Assembly (NCBI GenBank): GCA_011526275.1
Contig: WTJP01000140.1
Coordinates: 1-32,973 of the forward strand
DNA from: Candidatus Arcticimaribacter sp.
GTDB taxonomy: Bacteria > Bacteroidota > Bacteroidia > Flavobacteriales > Flavobacteriaceae
Direction: 5' to 3'
DNA length: 32,973 nt
The position numbers and the translations under genes are program-made. Below, one piece after another: positions 12,845 through 29,878 of the stretch. The notes beneath the pieces are model-generated. The model ran no database searches, had not been told where the DNA came from, and saw only the letters and a program-made list of their open reading frames with translations. Within the stretch, counting starts at the first letter, position 1. Each line of letters begins with the position of its first letter.

Positions 12845-12856
12845 CATAAATATTAA

Positions 12857-12907
12857 CGAGGAAGGATTTGACTGATTGCAAACCTCGAGAAAAAAATGCT
12901 AAAACAG
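12857..12907 (+). ncRNA. SAM-II-type riboswitch aptamer in the 5' leader of metK
   Basis: CGAGG-AAGGATTTGACTGATTGCAAA-CCTCG-AGAAAAAAATGCTAAAACAG. P1 = 12857-12861/12883-12887; pseudoknot pairs GCA 12878-12880/TGC 12897-12899 and CTG 12872-12874/CAG 12905-12907; conserved GATTT...ATTGCAA...AAATGCTAAAA segments match the remembered metX SAM-II architecture. Confidence 0.82.
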
Positions 12908-12909
12908 AA

Positions 12910-12956
12910 TTGCTTTCGTTGAACGAGCGAATCTTCAAAATCCTTCCAGAAAGCAA
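12910..12956 (+). promoter_or_regulatory. Candidate expression-platform hairpin between the aptamer and the metK start codon
   Basis: TTGCTTTC (12910-12917) is perfectly complementary to GAAAGCAA (12949-12956), 6 nt before ATG 12963. Confidence 0.5.
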
Positions 12957-23048: not shown

Positions 23049-24140
23049 TTATAAACTTAAATGGGTGTCGTCGCAAAAAGGACCTTTTTTGGTGGCCTTG
23101 CAATTACAAAGGCGCACGGGACCAGTGCGTTTAGCGGTAAACTTGAGGGGTTTAATTTTTGTTCCATGGTGTGATCCATCGCAAAAAGGCTGCGTTTGAC
23201 TGCGCCCACAGGCACACCACAAGTATTCTTTTCCTTTGGTTAATTCTACATTTAAGGCCTCTTTTGTGGCAGTGTCTTCGTGTTTAAAATCTCTGTGCCA
23301 CTCACTTCTTTTGTCCTTCGAGCTAACAAAAGGGTAGAAGTAAGCCGCTGTCCAATCGTCTTCGGTTTTGCGGTGTAAGCCATAGGCCTCTGGATAGCTG
23401 GTTTGAAAGGTAGCGGTGCCAAAAAGTTGGTCCCATAAGCTAAACATATTGCCAAAATTCCCATTGGGATCACTTGCCTTGTCGAGCATGGAAGTCCCGT
23501 GGTGCGAATGGTGAAAAGAAGGCGTTATGATGATGCGTTCCACCACTTTGATAATGGGCTTAAGCGCAGCGTATTTGTAAAAAGGTTTATCCCATTTTAG
23601 GGTACTGTGCGAGCTAATAATGATCAATTGTTTAATGACTAAGCCCAAAGCAACGGCTTTAGCTCCGCCGGCATAAACCACAAATCCAACCCACCAAATA
23701 TTGGGCATCATCATGTAGTAGAGCATTGCATTGCGGTAGGAAACAAAGTAACCCATTTCTTCTGCTTGGTGGTGACTGCGGTGCAGTTTCCATAAAAATG
23801 GATACTCATGAGCAGAGCGGTGGTACCAATATTGAAGTACATCGTCGAGGAGAATATACCCGAAGAATAGAGGTACAAAGGAGAGAGACTTTAAAAGTTG
23901 TGTTCCTTCGGGATAGAGGGAACTACCCATAAAATAGACCGTTGCGACAATTGCTGGTTTAATCCCGGTGGAGAGGAAAAGAAAGCTAAAAACCTCTTGA
24001 ATCCAGTCGCCTTTCGAGCGTTTTGAATTGGCTAAAAAACCCGAAATGGATTCCATTAAACCAAAACCAATGAGGATGCCTAGAACGAGATAAACGTCAA
24101 AATTTTCGATTGCGAGTAGAGAGGAGAGGAGTTGCTTCAT
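23049..24140 (-). CDS. Sterol desaturase/fatty acid hydroxylase-like membrane protein with C-terminal tandem CDGSH iron-sulfur motifs
   Basis: 363 aa; YWYHRSAHEYPFLWKLHRSHHQAEEM and SFHHSHHGT His clusters; C-terminus CACGRSQTQPFCDGSHHG and CNCKATKKGPFCDDTH. Confidence 0.9.
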   Translation of the reverse strand: MKQLLSSLLAIENFDVYLVLGILIGFGLMESISGFLANSKRSKGDWIQEVFSFLFLSTGIKPAIVATVYFMGSSLYPEGTQLLKSLSFVPLFFGYILLDDVLQYWYHRSAHEYPFLWKLHRSHHQAEEMGYFVSYRNAMLYYMMMPNIWWVGFVVYAGGAKAVALGLVIKQLIIISSHSTLKWDKPFYKYAALKPIIKVVERIIITPSFHHSHHGTSMLDKASDPNGNFGNMFSLWDQLFGTATFQTSYPEAYGLHRKTEDDWTAAYFYPFVSSKDKRSEWHRDFKHEDTATKEALNVELTKGKEYLWCACGRSQTQPFCDGSHHGTKIKPLKFTAKRTGPVRLCNCKATKKGPFCDDTHLSL

Positions 24141-25723
24141 TATTCTTCGTCATTTTTTCTAAAGGTGGGTACGATACGTGCTTTTGTTTTTTGTTCAAAA
24201 CCATAGGCTATTTCGATGAGGGTGGGTTCACTCCATGCACGTCCAAAAATGGAGAGCCCAACGGGAAGTCCGTGAATATTCCCCATGGGTACAGTAATGT
24301 TAGGGTAGCCTGCCCATGCAGCTGGGGAGGAACTGCCGATGTGGTAATTGTCTCCGTTAAGCCAGTCGGTGCTCCAAGCTGGGCTTCCAGTGGGAGCGAT
24401 AATGGCATCGAGTTGGTGTTCATTCATCACCCGATCCATTCCCTCTTGCTGACTCATGCGTTGTAAATTGGACAAAGCAGTTAGATAGGCCTCGCTATCG
24501 AGCCCTTCTTTTTCTTGCGCCATTTTTAAGTAAGCTTGATTGTAGTATTTCAATTCAAGGCTGTCTTGCTCATTGAAAGCGATGAGTGCTTCTAAGTTTT
24601 CAATAGCGGCTTTTTCACCTAAAGAGGAGAAGTAGTCGTTTAGTCCAGCTTTGTATTCATGCAACATCACTTGAAAAGAGTGCTGCCCTGTACCACGGGG
24701 GGCAATTTCATCGATTTCAATAAGGCTAGCCCCTGCTGCTTTAATCAAGCGAACCGATTGTTGCACCAAAGAATCTACCTGCGGATTTGCACCTAGTGGA
24801 GCGGTGTAAAGTGCGATGCGTTTACCTGCAAGTCCGTTGGGCTTAAGGTAGGGGGTGTAGTCATCTAAGGCCTTATTTTTACTCGCTGCAGTTTTGCTGT
24901 CTTTGGTATCGATGCCTGTTAAGCCACCCAACGCAATAACCGCATCGGTAAGGGTGCGTGCCATGGGGCCGGCAGTATCTTGTGTAAATGAAATGGGGAT
25001 GATGCCTGAACGACTGATAAGCCCAACAGTGGGTTTAATGCCTACAATACCATTGGCGTTCGATGGACACACAATCGACCCATTCGTTTCTGTCCCAATG
25101 GCTAAAACGGTGAGGTTGGCCGAGACAGCAACGCCAGATCCCGAGCTTGAACCGCAAGGGTTTCGCGTTAAGACATAAGGATTCTTGGTTTGACCATTGA
25201 TACCACTCCAGCCACTTGAAGAATGTTGCCCGCGAAAATTGGCCCACTCGCTTAAATTGGCTTTCGCTAAAATTACCGCTCCTGCTTCCCGGAGTTTTTT
25301 CGCGACATAACTGTCTTGTAGTGGTTTAGAGTTTTGCAGTGCGCGTGAGCCTGCCGTAGTATTCATTTTATCGTGGGTATCAATATTGTCTTTTAAAACC
25401 ACAGGAATACCGTGTAAAGGTCCGCGTATTTTTCCCGCAGCCAACTCCTTGTCCAACTGTTCTGCTATGGAAAGGGCATCGGGGTTGATCTGAATGATGG
25501 ACCGTAATTGTGGGCCACTAAAATCGACCTCCTCAATGCGCTCGAGATAGGCTTGGGTGATTTCTTTGATGGTGAATTCCCCTTCATGATAGCCCTCTTT
25601 TAAGCCTTGAATATCGATTTCCATATATTCAAATTCATTGGGATCGTGTTCTATTTTTACTTCCGCTGTAATACAACTAAACAGGAGGAATGGGAGGAAA
25701 TAAAAGAGGCGTTTCGGCATCAT
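24140..25723 (-). CDS. Amidase family protein, probable lipoprotein
   Basis: 527 aa; lipobox-like FLPFLLFSC; GIPVVLKDNIDT, NPCGSSSGSGVAVSANLTVLAIGTETNGSIVCPSNANGIVGIKPT amidase signature. Confidence 0.92.
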   Translation of the reverse strand: MMPKRLFYFLPFLLFSCITAEVKIEHDPNEFEYMEIDIQGLKEGYHEGEFTIKEITQAYLERIEEVDFSGPQLRSIIQINPDALSIAEQLDKELAAGKIRGPLHGIPVVLKDNIDTHDKMNTTAGSRALQNSKPLQDSYVAKKLREAGAVILAKANLSEWANFRGQHSSSGWSGINGQTKNPYVLTRNPCGSSSGSGVAVSANLTVLAIGTETNGSIVCPSNANGIVGIKPTVGLISRSGIIPISFTQDTAGPMARTLTDAVIALGGLTGIDTKDSKTAASKNKALDDYTPYLKPNGLAGKRIALYTAPLGANPQVDSLVQQSVRLIKAAGASLIEIDEIAPRGTGQHSFQVMLHEYKAGLNDYFSSLGEKAAIENLEALIAFNEQDSLELKYYNQAYLKMAQEKEGLDSEAYLTALSNLQRMSQQEGMDRVMNEHQLDAIIAPTGSPAWSTDWLNGDNYHIGSSSPAAWAGYPNITVPMGNIHGLPVGLSIFGRAWSEPTLIEIAYGFEQKTKARIVPTFRKNDEE

Positions 25724-25779
25724 AATAGTCGTTCAATCAGTTGTAAATTACGGTTTTTTGCAAAAAAGGAAAGAAAAAT

Positions 25780-25809
25780 TTGTTTTTATCTCTGGAGATA
25801 GTAGTTTTG
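25780..25809 (+). promoter_or_regulatory. Promoter of the pheA operon (TTG -33, TAGTTTTG -7)
   Basis: TTG 25780-25782, 19-nt spacer, TAGTTTTG 25802-25809; predicted start just before the leader ORF. Confidence 0.75.
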
Positions 25810-25827
25810 CAGGGTTATTAAACAAAA

Positions 25828-25896
25828 ATGAACAATACGTTTTTTTACTACAACAGCTTTTATTTCTTCTATCAAGAGGAGAAAGGGACTTTGTAG
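25828..25896 (+). CDS. Phe/Tyr-rich leader peptide of a transcription attenuator
   Basis: ATG AAC AAT ACG TTT TTT TAC TAC AAC AGC TTT TAT TTC TTC TAT CAA GAG GAG AAA GGG ACT TTG TAG = MNNTFFYYNSFYFFYQEEKGTL*; 5 Phe + 4 Tyr in codons 5-15, using both synonymous codons of each. Confidence 0.88.
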   Translation: MNNTFFYYNSFYFFYQEEKGTL

Positions 25897-25920
25897 TGAA
25901 TGAACGCTAAACCATAAATG

Positions 25921-25952
25921 AAGTCCTGAATATTGTTCGGGACTTTTTTTTT
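25921..25952 (+). terminator. Attenuator: intrinsic terminator between the leader peptide and pheA
   Basis: AAGTCCTGAA (25921-25930) pairs with TTCGGGACTT (25936-25945; one G-U), loop TATTG, followed by T tract to 25952; 8 nt before the pheA ATG with no other upstream + strand gene to terminate. Confidence 0.9.
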
Positions 25953-25960
25953 GAATTAAG

Positions 25961-26788
25961 ATGAAAGAAAAAATCGCCATACAAGGAATTAAAGGTTCAT
26001 TTCACCATGCGGTGGCTATGGACTATTTTTCTCCTGAGGTTGCTTTAGAAGAATGCCTTAGTTTCGACGCTGTAGTCGATGCACTTTTGAGCGGGAAAGT
26101 AAAGCAGGCGGTTATGGCATTGGAGAATTCCATTGCAGGATCGATTATCCCCAATTATGCGCTCATCGATCATAACAACTTGACCATAGTGGGGGAGTAT
26201 AACTTGAATATTCACCACAACTTAATGGCCTTGGAGGGGCAAGGCATTGAAGAACTTACCGAGGTGCACTCGCACCCGATGGCACTTCTACAGTGTAAAG
26301 CTTTTTTCAAGCAATACCCACACATTAAACTCATTGAAGCATCCGACACAGCCGATGTTGCCCGTAAAATTTCAGAGGAAAAATTACTTGGAATAGCGGC
26401 CATTGCCCCAAAAGAAGCTGCGCATATTTACGGCTTAAACCTTTTGGCAACTTCTATACAAACCATTAAAAACAATGTAACCCGTTTTGTGGTGGTGCAG
26501 CAAAAAAATGGAGCTTTACCCAAAGACCAAGTCAATAAAGCTTCGTTAAAGTTTGTCCTCGACCACCAGCGGGGAAGTTTGGCTGCTGTGCTCAATGTAA
26601 TGAGCGATTGCCTGTTAAATTTAACCAAGATACAGTCCCTCCCAGTCATTGAAACCCCAGGGAAGTATGCCTTCTTTGTGGACATGACTTTTGACACCTA
26701 CGAACAATACGACAAAGCACGCAAGATTTTAGCCATCATGGCGTTAGAATTTAAAATATTAGGCGAATACGCCGACGCAAAAAAATGA
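25961..26788 (+). CDS. pheA: Prephenate dehydratase (monofunctional, ACT domain C-terminal)
   Basis: 275 aa; IAIQGIKGSFHHAVAMDYF, VMALENSIAGSIIPNYALI, NNVTRFVVV (TRF motif), ESLPV-like SLPVIETPGKYAFFVD. Confidence 0.93.
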   Translation: MKEKIAIQGIKGSFHHAVAMDYFSPEVALEECLSFDAVVDALLSGKVKQAVMALENSIAGSIIPNYALIDHNNLTIVGEYNLNIHHNLMALEGQGIEELTEVHSHPMALLQCKAFFKQYPHIKLIEASDTADVARKISEEKLLGIAAIAPKEAAHIYGLNLLATSIQTIKNNVTRFVVVQQKNGALPKDQVNKASLKFVLDHQRGSLAAVLNVMSDCLLNLTKIQSLPVIETPGKYAFFVDMTFDTYEQYDKARKILAIMALEFKILGEYADAKK

Positions 26789-27939
26789 AGATGATTACCG
26801 CTACACGATTGGAAAGCGTTAAAGAGTACTACTTCTCCAAGAAATTGCGCGAAGTGGCAGGCTTGGTACAACAAGGGAAACCCATCCTCAACATGGGAAT
26901 TGGTAGTCCCGATTTGCCTCCGCACCCCTCGGTAGTCGAGGCATTGCAAGCGGGGTTAAGCCACCCCAAAGCACATATGTACCAAAGTTATCAAGGGCTT
27001 CCTGAATTGCGTCAGGCCATGGCCGATTTTTACCAACGCAACTATGCCGTTGATTTGGATCCCAACCGAGAAGTACTGCCTTTAATGGGCTCGAAAGAAG
27101 GGATCATGCACATTTCCATGGCTTTTCTCAACAAAGGCGATGAGGTCTTGATTCCTAATCCGGGTTATCCAACCTACAGCTCGGTGACACAATTGGTCGA
27201 GGCGCGCCCTGTTTTTTATGACTTAAACGAGGCAGCGGGCTGGCAACCAGATTTTGAAGCCTTAGAGCGACTAGATACCACAAAAATAAAGCTGATGTGG
27301 GTCAATTATCCACATATGCCGACTGGGACAAAGGCGCAAGCTGCAACCTTTGAACGTCTAATTGACTGGGCTAAAAAGAATGAGGTATTGTTGGTCAACG
27401 ACAATCCCTATAGTTTTATCTTAAACGAGGAGCCCCAAAGCCTTTTGAGCTTTCCGGGAGCCAAAGCCGTTGCTATGGAACTCAACTCTTTGAGCAAATC
27501 CTTCAATATGGCTGGCTGGCGTGTAGGACAACTTTCAGGGAATGCAGAAAATATTCAAGCGGTTTTAAAGGTAAAAAGCAATATGGATTCGGGTATGTTC
27601 TACGGGATTCAGCAAGGGGCAATCGCTGCGCTCAATGCGCCGTCTTCTTGGTTTGCTGAATTGAATGCTACCTACCGCAAACGCCGCAGTTTGATTGAAA
27701 CTTTGGCGACTTCCATGAATACCACTTTTGATCCGAACAGTGTTGGACTCTTTGTTTGGGCCAAGCTCAACGACGATCGCCTCACTGCAGAGGCTTATAT
27801 AGACGAATTGCTGTACGAGAAAGACATCTTCATTACCCCAGGAACTATTTTTGGTTCCCAAGGAGAAGGCTATGTACGCTTTTCTTTGTGCGTGACTGAA
27901 GAACAAATACAAACTGCTATAAACCGAATGCAAGCATGA
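26785..27939 (+). CDS. Class I/II PLP aminotransferase (probable aromatic/aspartate type)
   Basis: 384 aa; NMGIGSPDLPPHPSVVEAL, NPGYPTYSSV, SLSKSFNMAGWRVG; ATGA overlap with pheA. Confidence 0.9.
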   Translation: MKMITATRLESVKEYYFSKKLREVAGLVQQGKPILNMGIGSPDLPPHPSVVEALQAGLSHPKAHMYQSYQGLPELRQAMADFYQRNYAVDLDPNREVLPLMGSKEGIMHISMAFLNKGDEVLIPNPGYPTYSSVTQLVEARPVFYDLNEAAGWQPDFEALERLDTTKIKLMWVNYPHMPTGTKAQAATFERLIDWAKKNEVLLVNDNPYSFILNEEPQSLLSFPGAKAVAMELNSLSKSFNMAGWRVGQLSGNAENIQAVLKVKSNMDSGMFYGIQQGAIAALNAPSSWFAELNATYRKRRSLIETLATSMNTTFDPNSVGLFVWAKLNDDRLTAEAYIDELLYEKDIFITPGTIFGSQGEGYVRFSLCVTEEQIQTAINRMQA

Positions 27940-28793
27940 AAATTTATGTAATTGGTATCGGTTTAATTGGTGGTTCCATGGCTTTGGATCTAAAAGATCT
28001 TGACCCTGCCCATGAAATTATTGGAGTTGATACCAATGCTGCTCACTTAGACGAGGCCCTTTCTTTAGGGATCATCGATCAAAAGGCTACCCTAGATACG
28101 TTGAATGAAGCCGATCGTGTGATTTTAAGTATTCCGGTAAAAGACAGTATGCGTTTACTTCCTGGACTACTCGATCAATTGCACCAAGATGCTTTGTTGT
28201 GGGATGTAGGTTCGACCAAAGAGCAATTGTGTAAGGTAGTGGAAAACCACCCAAAACGCGACCAATACCTCGCAGCGCATCCCATTGCTGGAACGGAATT
28301 CTCGGGCCCCAAGGCGGCGCACAAAGGCTTGTTCTCTGGAAAACCACAAATCTTGTGTGAAGCCAAGTCAACCCGTTCTGACTTGTTAATTTGGGCCAAA
28401 ACAGCTTTCCGTCAAATGGGCATGTACCTGCGCTTTATGGATCCGAAGGAGCACGATCGCCACATGGCTTGTGTTTCTCACCTATCGCACATCAGTTCTT
28501 TTATGTTAGGGAAAACGGTACTTGAACAAGAAGCCGATGAACAAAATATTTTTGACTTGGCGGGCAGTGGATTTGAATCGACGGTGCGTTTGGCCAAAAG
28601 TTCTCCCGAAATGTGGACCCCAATATTTGAACAAAACAAAGCCAATGTGATCGATATTTTGAGCGATTACATTGATAACTTACAGAATTTCAAACGCAAA
28701 TTGGAAGACGATCAGTTCGATGATTTGCATCAACAAATGAAAAATACGAATCAATTAACCACCATTCTTAACGGAATTAAACACAACAATTAG
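27936..28793 (+). CDS. tyrA: Prephenate dehydrogenase
   Basis: 285 aa; IYVIGIGLIGGSMALDL, DVGSTKEQLCKVVE, AAHPIAGTEFSGPKAA, HDRHMACVSHLSHISSF; ATGA overlap with the aminotransferase. Confidence 0.93.
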   Translation: MKIYVIGIGLIGGSMALDLKDLDPAHEIIGVDTNAAHLDEALSLGIIDQKATLDTLNEADRVILSIPVKDSMRLLPGLLDQLHQDALLWDVGSTKEQLCKVVENHPKRDQYLAAHPIAGTEFSGPKAAHKGLFSGKPQILCEAKSTRSDLLIWAKTAFRQMGMYLRFMDPKEHDRHMACVSHLSHISSFMLGKTVLEQEADEQNIFDLAGSGFESTVRLAKSSPEMWTPIFEQNKANVIDILSDYIDNLQNFKRKLEDDQFDDLHQQMKNTNQLTTILNGIKHNN

Positions 28794-28795
28794 AT

Positions 28796-29878
28796 ATGGA
28801 AAATTCACCCGCAATGCGCCAATGGTTAGATAACTTTGGACTTTCACACCCACTGGTTATTGGAGGACCTTGTAGCGCCGAAACTGAAGAGCAAGTCATG
28901 AAAATTGCTCATGAACTCAAAGATACCGATGTAACGGTTTACCGTGCCGGTATTTGGAAACCAAGAACGCGCCCTGGAAATTTTGAAGGGGTAGGTGCTA
29001 TTGGATTAAAATGGCTACAACGTGTTAAAGAAGAAACGGGTCTTTTGACGGCTACAGAGGTTGCCAACAAAGACCATGTTAAGTTGGCTTTAGAGCACGA
29101 TATCGATATTCTATGGATTGGTGCACGTTCTACTGTGAGCCCATTTATCGTTCAAGAAATTGCAGACGCATTGGAAGGAACCGATAAAATTGTATTGGTG
29201 AAAAACCCTGTCAATCCTGATGTTGCCCTTTGGTTGGGTGGTATTGAGCGTTTGTACACAGCCAATATCAAAAACCTTGGTCTCATCCATAGAGGATTCT
29301 CTTCTTATGGAAAATCAAAATACCGCAACAACCCAGAGTGGCAGATTGCTGTTGAGGTACAAAATCGTTTCCCCGATTTACCGCTCATTTGTGATCCATC
29401 GCACATTACAGGAAAACGCGACATGATTTTTGATACTTGTCAAATGGCGCTAGACCTCAACTTCGACGGTTTAATGGTGGAAAGTCACTGGGATCCAGAC
29501 AATGCTTGGAGTGATGCTGCACAGCAAGTTACCCCTACGGCTTTAGTGCAAATCATGAAAGACTTGAAAATTCGCGAGGCTACTACCGATGAGGAAAATT
29601 ATCAGACCGAGTTACAAAACTTACGTGCACAAATTGATATTGCCGATCAGGCTATACTTGACACCCTTGGAAAACGCATGAAAGTTGCCGAGGCTATTGG
29701 GGAAATTAAAAAAGCCAACAATGTAGCAGTATTGCAAAATAAACGTTGGAATGAAATCCTAGGAAAAATGGTTCTCGAAGGAGAAGAACGCAACCTTTCT
29801 GAAGAATTTATTCTACGCTTGTTTAAAGCCATTCACCAAGAATCGATCAATCATCAAGAGCAGATCGTGAAAGGATAA
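28796..29878 (+). CDS. Bifunctional DAHP synthase / chorismate mutase (AroQ type)
   Basis: 360 aa; VIGGPCSAETEEQVMKIAHEL, VYRAGIWKPRTRPGNFEGVG, CDPSHITGKRD; C-terminal LRAQIDIADQAILDTLGKRMKVAEAIGEIKK (AroQ). Confidence 0.95.
   Translation: MENSPAMRQWLDNFGLSHPLVIGGPCSAETEEQVMKIAHELKDTDVTVYRAGIWKPRTRPGNFEGVGAIGLKWLQRVKEETGLLTATEVANKDHVKLALEHDIDILWIGARSTVSPFIVQEIADALEGTDKIVLVKNPVNPDVALWLGGIERLYTANIKNLGLIHRGFSSYGKSKYRNNPEWQIAVEVQNRFPDLPLICDPSHITGKRDMIFDTCQMALDLNFDGLMVESHWDPDNAWSDAAQQVTPTALVQIMKDLKIREATTDEENYQTELQNLRAQIDIADQAILDTLGKRMKVAEAIGEIKKANNVAVLQNKRWNEILGKMVLEGEERNLSEEFILRLFKAIHQESINHQEQIVKG

Follow-up and report, generated by a model that had tools for sequence, protein, structure and literature searches.

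Ribosome-mediated attenuation via a leader peptide is a textbook principle, of which pheL of Escherichia coli is the familiar case, and the same organism has multi-amino-acid attenuators for linked pathways in thrL (Thr/Ile) and ilvL (Ile/Val/Leu), with initiation driven by Shine-Dalgarno pairing. Attenuators that make use of Tyr codons seem to be little described. A 2005 comparison of Actinobacteria credits Phe control elsewhere to attenuators and Tyr control to T-boxes (PMC1262725). For Flavobacterium psychrophilum, the main text of a 2021 transcriptome study reports strong indications that leader peptides attenuate transcription ahead of amino-acid operons, describes a structured 5' element upstream of pheA that is conserved in the family, and notes in its introduction that flavobacterial translation initiation relies on sequence properties other than the Shine-Dalgarno sequence (PMC9723704); a map of Bacteroides thetaiotaomicron mentions leader-like short ORFs (sORFs) (PMC7366714). 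No open-access account of a class-wide spread, a codon-anchored antiterminator, or tandem copies of such leaders was found, the supplements of PMC9723704 and Lopatovskaya et al. 2010 (Mol Biol 44:128, cited in PMC4833913) lying outside the scope of this search.

The leader examined here lies upstream of pheA in a window of 32,973 nucleotides (the whole stretch of DNA that was analysed) from a Flavobacteriaceae genome that was assembled from metagenomic data and belongs to the Candidatus Arcticimaribacter group (1.68 Mb, 174 contigs, 80% complete). It resembles E. coli pheL/pheA (and pheM/pheST) in having a short ORF rich in the regulated residues, overlapping alternative helices, and an intrinsic terminator before pheA. 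Unlike pheL, this leader has Tyr codons among its Phe codons, and its operon covers both branches of the pathway together with DAHP synthase; no sequence homology between the two leaders is claimed. As in thrL and ilvL, one leader peptide contains several amino acids of linked pathways, although the amino acids are others and flavobacterial initiation is not Shine-Dalgarno driven. The leader shares its gene and its family with the structured element of F. psychrophilum, and three Flavobacterium leaders in the present set (L101, L104, and L107) have the same anatomy; in contrast to the present analysis, the main text of that study has no pheA leader sequence, antiterminator, or codon analysis (PMC9723704).

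A scan of the leader against Rfam gave no element at the gathering threshold and no T-box up to an E-value of 10. The Phe_leader model (RF01859), built on enterobacterial pheL, aligns end to end over 25827-25951 with 25.3 bits against a gathering threshold of 55 (E 0.03, in a search of 301 bases). The leader would work like Phe_leader but does not score as a member of RF01859. Elsewhere in the window, a SAM-II riboswitch (RF01726) is found above threshold at 12852-12912 on the plus strand (74.1 bits).

The leader ORF and its operon

The genes and the first elements of the leader are as follows.

24140-25723, minus strand: amidase, the upstream neighbour, divergent from pheA
25779-25809, plus strand: promoter, read directly, with TTTG at 25779-25782, a 19-nt spacer, and TAGTTTTG at 25802-25809
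25828-25896, plus strand: leader peptide ORF of 22 codons, MNNTFFYYNSFYFFYQEEKGTL and stop, read directly and conserved 5' of pheA in relatives
25840-25872, plus strand: control codons 5-15, FFYYNSFYFFY, 9 of 11 aromatic, read directly and subjected to shuffle, sORF, and selection tests
25961-26788, plus strand: pheA, prephenate dehydratase (PF00800, E 1.2e-55)
26785-27939, plus strand: class I/II aminotransferase, second gene of the operon (PF00155)
27936-28793, plus strand: tyrA, prephenate dehydrogenase (PF02153 and PF20463; NF006307 above cut-off)
28796-29878, plus strand: DAHP synthase/chorismate mutase (DAHPS/CM) fusion (PF00793 and PF01817)

Domain matches of all four genes confirm the pheA-aminotransferase-tyrA-DAHPS/CM operon named in the first-pass annotation, and the amidase is on the minus strand, divergent as that annotation had it. 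The same gene order occurs in 76 of 80 named Flavobacteriaceae loci, and this content fits a Phe/Tyr attenuator. The annotated promoter, TTG-N19-TAGTTTTG, likewise holds (TTG at 25780-25782), and its downstream element agrees with the flavobacterial sigma-A box TAnnTTTG. Since that box sits at -12 to -5 (PMC9723704), transcription is expected to start near 25814, giving a leader RNA of about 139 nt that ends at the T tract (25952). In relatives, TAnnTTTG lies mostly 22-27 nt before the ORF with TTTG preceding it, and the layout AAAATTTGTTTTT...TAnnTTTG is found 5' of the sORF in 54 of 94 leaders, where 0.03 matches are expected per stretch. The fold of the leader RNA is 7.0 sd below shuffles, that is, more stable.

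The 22-codon ORF with nine Phe or Tyr among eleven codons is present as first described, and the antisense ORF across it that had been called spurious (25786-25980, minus strand) exists merely as a mechanical ORF. When the 237-nt intergenic region was shuffled 3000 times with dinucleotides preserved, the density never rose above 7 F/Y per 11 codons, against 9 in the real sequence. Related DNA (789 kb, pheA leaders excluded) holds about 12,300 other ATG-started sORFs, and not one of them has even 8 F/Y per 10 codons. Across the 1.68-Mb genome, the exact 33-nt F/Y codon pattern has a single match, the pheA leader. A genome-wide search allowing up to two mismatches was dropped: its control patterns gave nearly as many matches as the real one, so the exact match alone is informative.

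Selection on the ORF was assessed with 35 same-length leaders (34 relatives and the window). pN/pS is 0.25 in the aromatic block versus 0.84 in the tail, and third codon positions of the block are T in 189 cases, C in 183, A in 11, and G in 2. These third-position counts indicate that the constraint is on which amino acids are encoded and not on T richness, as the first-pass annotation had argued. The leader ORF is likely to be translated. Its tail, by its pN/pS, appears constrained as RNA rather than as protein; the Gly/Arg-Thr-Leu residues there are probably conserved because their codons build RNA strand 2, described below.

Among 111 Flavobacteriaceae sequences (110 pheA loci, many of them represented in both of two collections, and the window), all but one (L024) have an aromatic-rich short ORF 5' of pheA, and a terminator follows 18-46 nt past the ORF in 95 of 95 distinct ATG-started leaders; because the relatives share ancestry, these counts overstate independent support. 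The aromatic ORF is apparently TTG- or GTG-started at L076 and L106. The comparison proposed at the outset, a search of relatives for an F/Y-rich ORF and terminator with synonymous divergence, therefore came out in favour of the attenuator. Additionally, a leader RNA model finds one match per genome, just before pheA, in 19 of 19 genomes of the genus and in one outside it.

The exception, L024 in genome G031, is the sole Flavobacteriaceae locus read without an aromatic ORF. In its 260 nt before pheA, a repeat that has the hairpin TAATCCCGCC...GGCGGGAT is present twice, and it looks as if the leader has been replaced by the repeat.

Alternative helices and their spacing

Downstream of the control codons and partly within them, the leader RNA carries the following pairing elements.

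25846-25852, plus strand: strand 1, Tyr codons 7-8, pairing with 25892-25898 (1:2 helix) in the RNAalifold consensus of 30 leaders
25866-25879, plus strand: small inner hairpin CUUC...GAGG of the 1:2 structure, 25866-25869 with 25876-25879, 98.3% of cells paired in aligned leaders
25885-25892, plus strand: strand 2, the antiterminator 5' strand GGGACUUU, inside codons 20-22 and starting 12 nt past the last aromatic codon
25920-25931, plus strand: strand 3, the terminator 5' arm, read directly, whose GAAGUCCU (25920-25927) can by computation pair with strand 2 instead
25935-25946, plus strand: strand 4, the terminator 3' arm (loop 25932-25934), read directly
25944-25952, plus strand: T tract of the intrinsic terminator, read directly; hairpin and T tract occur in 95 of 95 distinct leaders

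The terminator, GAAGTCCTGAAT-ATT-GTTCGGGACTTT (25920-25946, with Ts to 25952), is the hairpin with T tract that had been placed before the pheA ATG at 25961, and its stem ends 14 nt 5' of that start codon. Strand 2 is complementary to GAAGUCCU in the terminator 5' arm, and this pairing is the antiterminator. In the 1:2 helix, Tyr codons 7-8 pair with the end of the ORF and its stop codon. In 30 aligned leaders, 97.1% of its cells are paired and the wobble base of Tyr codon 7 covaries with stop-codon position 3 (C-G 15, U-A 8, U-G 7). Shuffle and slide controls back the helix, although kinship among the sequences inflates counts of this kind. Antiterminator and 1:2 helix form the core of the mechanism and are present here, though absent from the first-pass annotation.

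Covariation within the genus alone says little on the terminator and antiterminator, strands 2, 3, and 4 being nearly invariant there, and for this reason clades were compared instead. Complementarity of strands 2 and 3 exceeded that of shuffles at p<=0.05 in 76 of 95 Flavobacteriaceae leaders. Between clades the three strands change together, from C/G/C to T/A/T and elsewhere from G/C/G to A/T/A; in this cross-clade count strand 2 was picked by complementarity, which favours pairing. A less biased test fixed the position of strand 2 in advance and scored full 5-bp pairing to strand 3. Such pairing peaks 11-12 nt past the last aromatic codon, and does so within all four sequence classes of strand 3. 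The offset is 12 nt in 60 of 95 leaders and 11 nt in 16, and no other offset accounts for more than 4. Measured from the end of the stop codon, the start of strand 2 varies between 31 nt upstream and 12 nt downstream. When a codon occupies the A site, the ribosome covers roughly 10-12 nt past it, so strand 2 begins at the edge of a ribosome stalled on the last aromatic codon.

Folding was simulated under ribosome footprints, with the ribosome assumed to cover 12 nt past the A-site codon. For RNA ending just past strand 3, the 1:2 helix formed with a probability of 1.00 and the antiterminator with 0.00 when no ribosome was present; a ribosome on codons 5, 7, 11, 13, or 15 gave antiterminator probabilities of 1.00, 1.00, 0.99, 1.00, and 0.86, and one at the stop codon gave 0.00. 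As soon as strand 4 has been transcribed, the terminator is favoured over the antiterminator at equilibrium in every ribosome state of the simulation, indicating that the decision of the switch must be kinetic, that is, co-transcriptional.

Under the proposed mechanism, RNA polymerase would start near 25814 and a ribosome would begin translating the leader ORF some 14 nt from the 5' end of the RNA. Were Phe-tRNA or Tyr-tRNA scarce, the ribosome would stall on one of codons 5-15, covering strand 1, opening the 1:2 helix, and leaving strand 2 free; strands 2 and 3 would then pair, no terminator would form, and pheA, the aminotransferase gene, tyrA, and the DAHPS/CM gene would be transcribed. With both tRNAs charged, a ribosome at the stop codon would cover strand 2, the 3:4 hairpin would form, and transcription would end near 25952. 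It would also end where no ribosome is present, with the 1:2 helix sequestering strand 2. This starvation response, the stalling at uncharged Phe or Tyr tRNAs, and the direction of control are predictions from the leader sequence.

The pheA leader is very probably a classical ribosome-mediated transcription attenuator. It has a short leader ORF with clustered codons for amino acids that the operon makes, an intrinsic terminator between this ORF and the first gene, an antiterminator that excludes the terminator and uses a strand near the ORF end, and, in the genus and its nearest relatives, a 1:2 helix that overlaps control codons and competes with that antiterminator. The coordinates in the first-pass annotation all hold, and its attenuator reading is strongly supported by conserved ORF and terminator, 2:3 and 1:2 pairing, geometry, and operon.

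The sensed amino acids and rival explanations

Sensing of both Phe and Tyr would be consistent with the presence of both residues in 95 of 95 Flavobacteriaceae leaders. It is possible, though rather unlikely, that the leader is an attenuator in which just one amino acid matters, for example one where Phe alone causes stalling and the other residue is tolerated, TTY and TAY codons being one step apart. F and Y do swap freely at codons 12 and 15, two genomes without a detectable tyrA (G030 and G252) have leaders that carry both residues, and a third such genome (G059, 83% complete) has Phe-only leaders. Against this stand the presence of both residues in all 95 Flavobacteriaceae leaders, with at least two of each in 92, and the nearly constant identity of two other positions, where codon 13 is Tyr in 33 of 35 and codon 14 is Phe in 34 of 35. 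A quite different kind of stalling, by an arrest peptide that senses a free ligand in the manner of TnaC and depends on the nascent chain instead of uncharged tRNA, would accord with conservation of the aromatic block as protein (pN/pS 0.25). Arrest peptides usually need fixed residues, whereas the order and length of the block are degenerate between genera and what is conserved is aromatic identity at a roughly constant spacing from strand 2, which is what codon-by-codon stalling would predict; this explanation is very improbable.

The conserved peptide could also be a small hydrophobic protein with a function of its own, next to a hairpin that is an unrelated terminator or a 5' stabiliser, and leader peptides with roles in trans are known, as described for peTrpL (PMC7298713). 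The constraint on the tail as RNA (pN/pS 0.84) and the match of strand 2 to the terminator 5' arm in every major clade speak against it, and a peptide of about 22 residues in which Asn, Asp, and Lys occur within the block or close to it would be unlike a membrane helix; the chance of such a protein is minimal. No greater likelihood attaches to control of the operon by a T-box or metabolite riboswitch with the F/Y ORF incidental: a structured leader and a terminator do exist, but Rfam gave no match of either kind in the leader, the best sub-threshold match was the Phe leader, and the F/Y ORF is far above chance. The T-box, riboswitch, and free-standing small protein explanations were rejected on this evidence.

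Aromatic leaders across the Bacteroidia

Sixty further pheA loci from the order and class were sampled. An aromatic-rich ORF lies 5' of pheA in about 47 of them, in many families of the Bacteroidia, and 54 aromatic ORFs were examined; a terminator was found in 52 of these and 2:3 pairing at p<=0.05 in 31, with strand 2 mostly 9-14 nt past the last aromatic codon. Judged from these sequences, a putative aromatic leader ORF precedes pheA in most sampled Bacteroidia families. In four genomes, the 450 nt before pheA hold a tandem array of two or three aromatic leader ORFs, every one of them followed by a terminator.

L131 and L209: tandem leaders of G059
L163 and L228: tandem leaders of G246
L164 and L229: tandem leaders of G200
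L178 and L236: tandem leaders of G169

The second ORF is weaker in L164 and L178, and the three leader ORFs of G059 all have Phe codons and none has Tyr. Of the 95 Flavobacteriaceae leaders 26 have Trp codons, as do 16 of the 40 other leaders, and Trp stands inside the Phe/Tyr block (e.g., YYNWFYFFF) in Winogradskyella, Olleya, Flagellimonas, and others (e.g., L054, L074, and L061). Leaders with Trp codons may sense all three aromatic amino acids, and because many relatives add Trp codons, 'aromatic amino acids' is maybe a better label for the wider group.

Short leader ORFs were also seen at other operons. Upstream of hisG in other genomes of the genus (L187-L190), His-rich leader ORFs (e.g., MQQILIHNHHHFTNSNEL) are followed by a terminator and likely represent a histidine attenuator. 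Upstream of trpE, short Trp-Trp leader ORFs occur in the genome that contains the window (L194 on contig C150; MKTINHSTNWWNE) and at L192, L193, and L195-L197, followed by the terminator-like AAAGGCTTGTCATCACGACAAGCCTTTTTT; these are likely a tryptophan attenuator. Since hisG and trpE leaders also occur, attenuation looks like a general style of amino acid control in the genus.

On balance, it is somewhat probable that the aromatic attenuator (Phe and Tyr, often with Trp) is an old, class-wide form of pheA control in Bacteroidia, that a 'ribosome ruler' sets strand 2 at 11-12 nt past the last control codon and not at the stop codon, and that some lineages have duplicated the attenuator into two or three copies in series. 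Constant spacing of strand 2 behind the last control codon is a simple, testable geometric rule and offers a route to annotating many unannotated leader peptides. It is very likely that textbook attenuation controls the synthesis of aromatic amino acids in a major class of bacteria whose ribosomes start translation without Shine-Dalgarno pairing.
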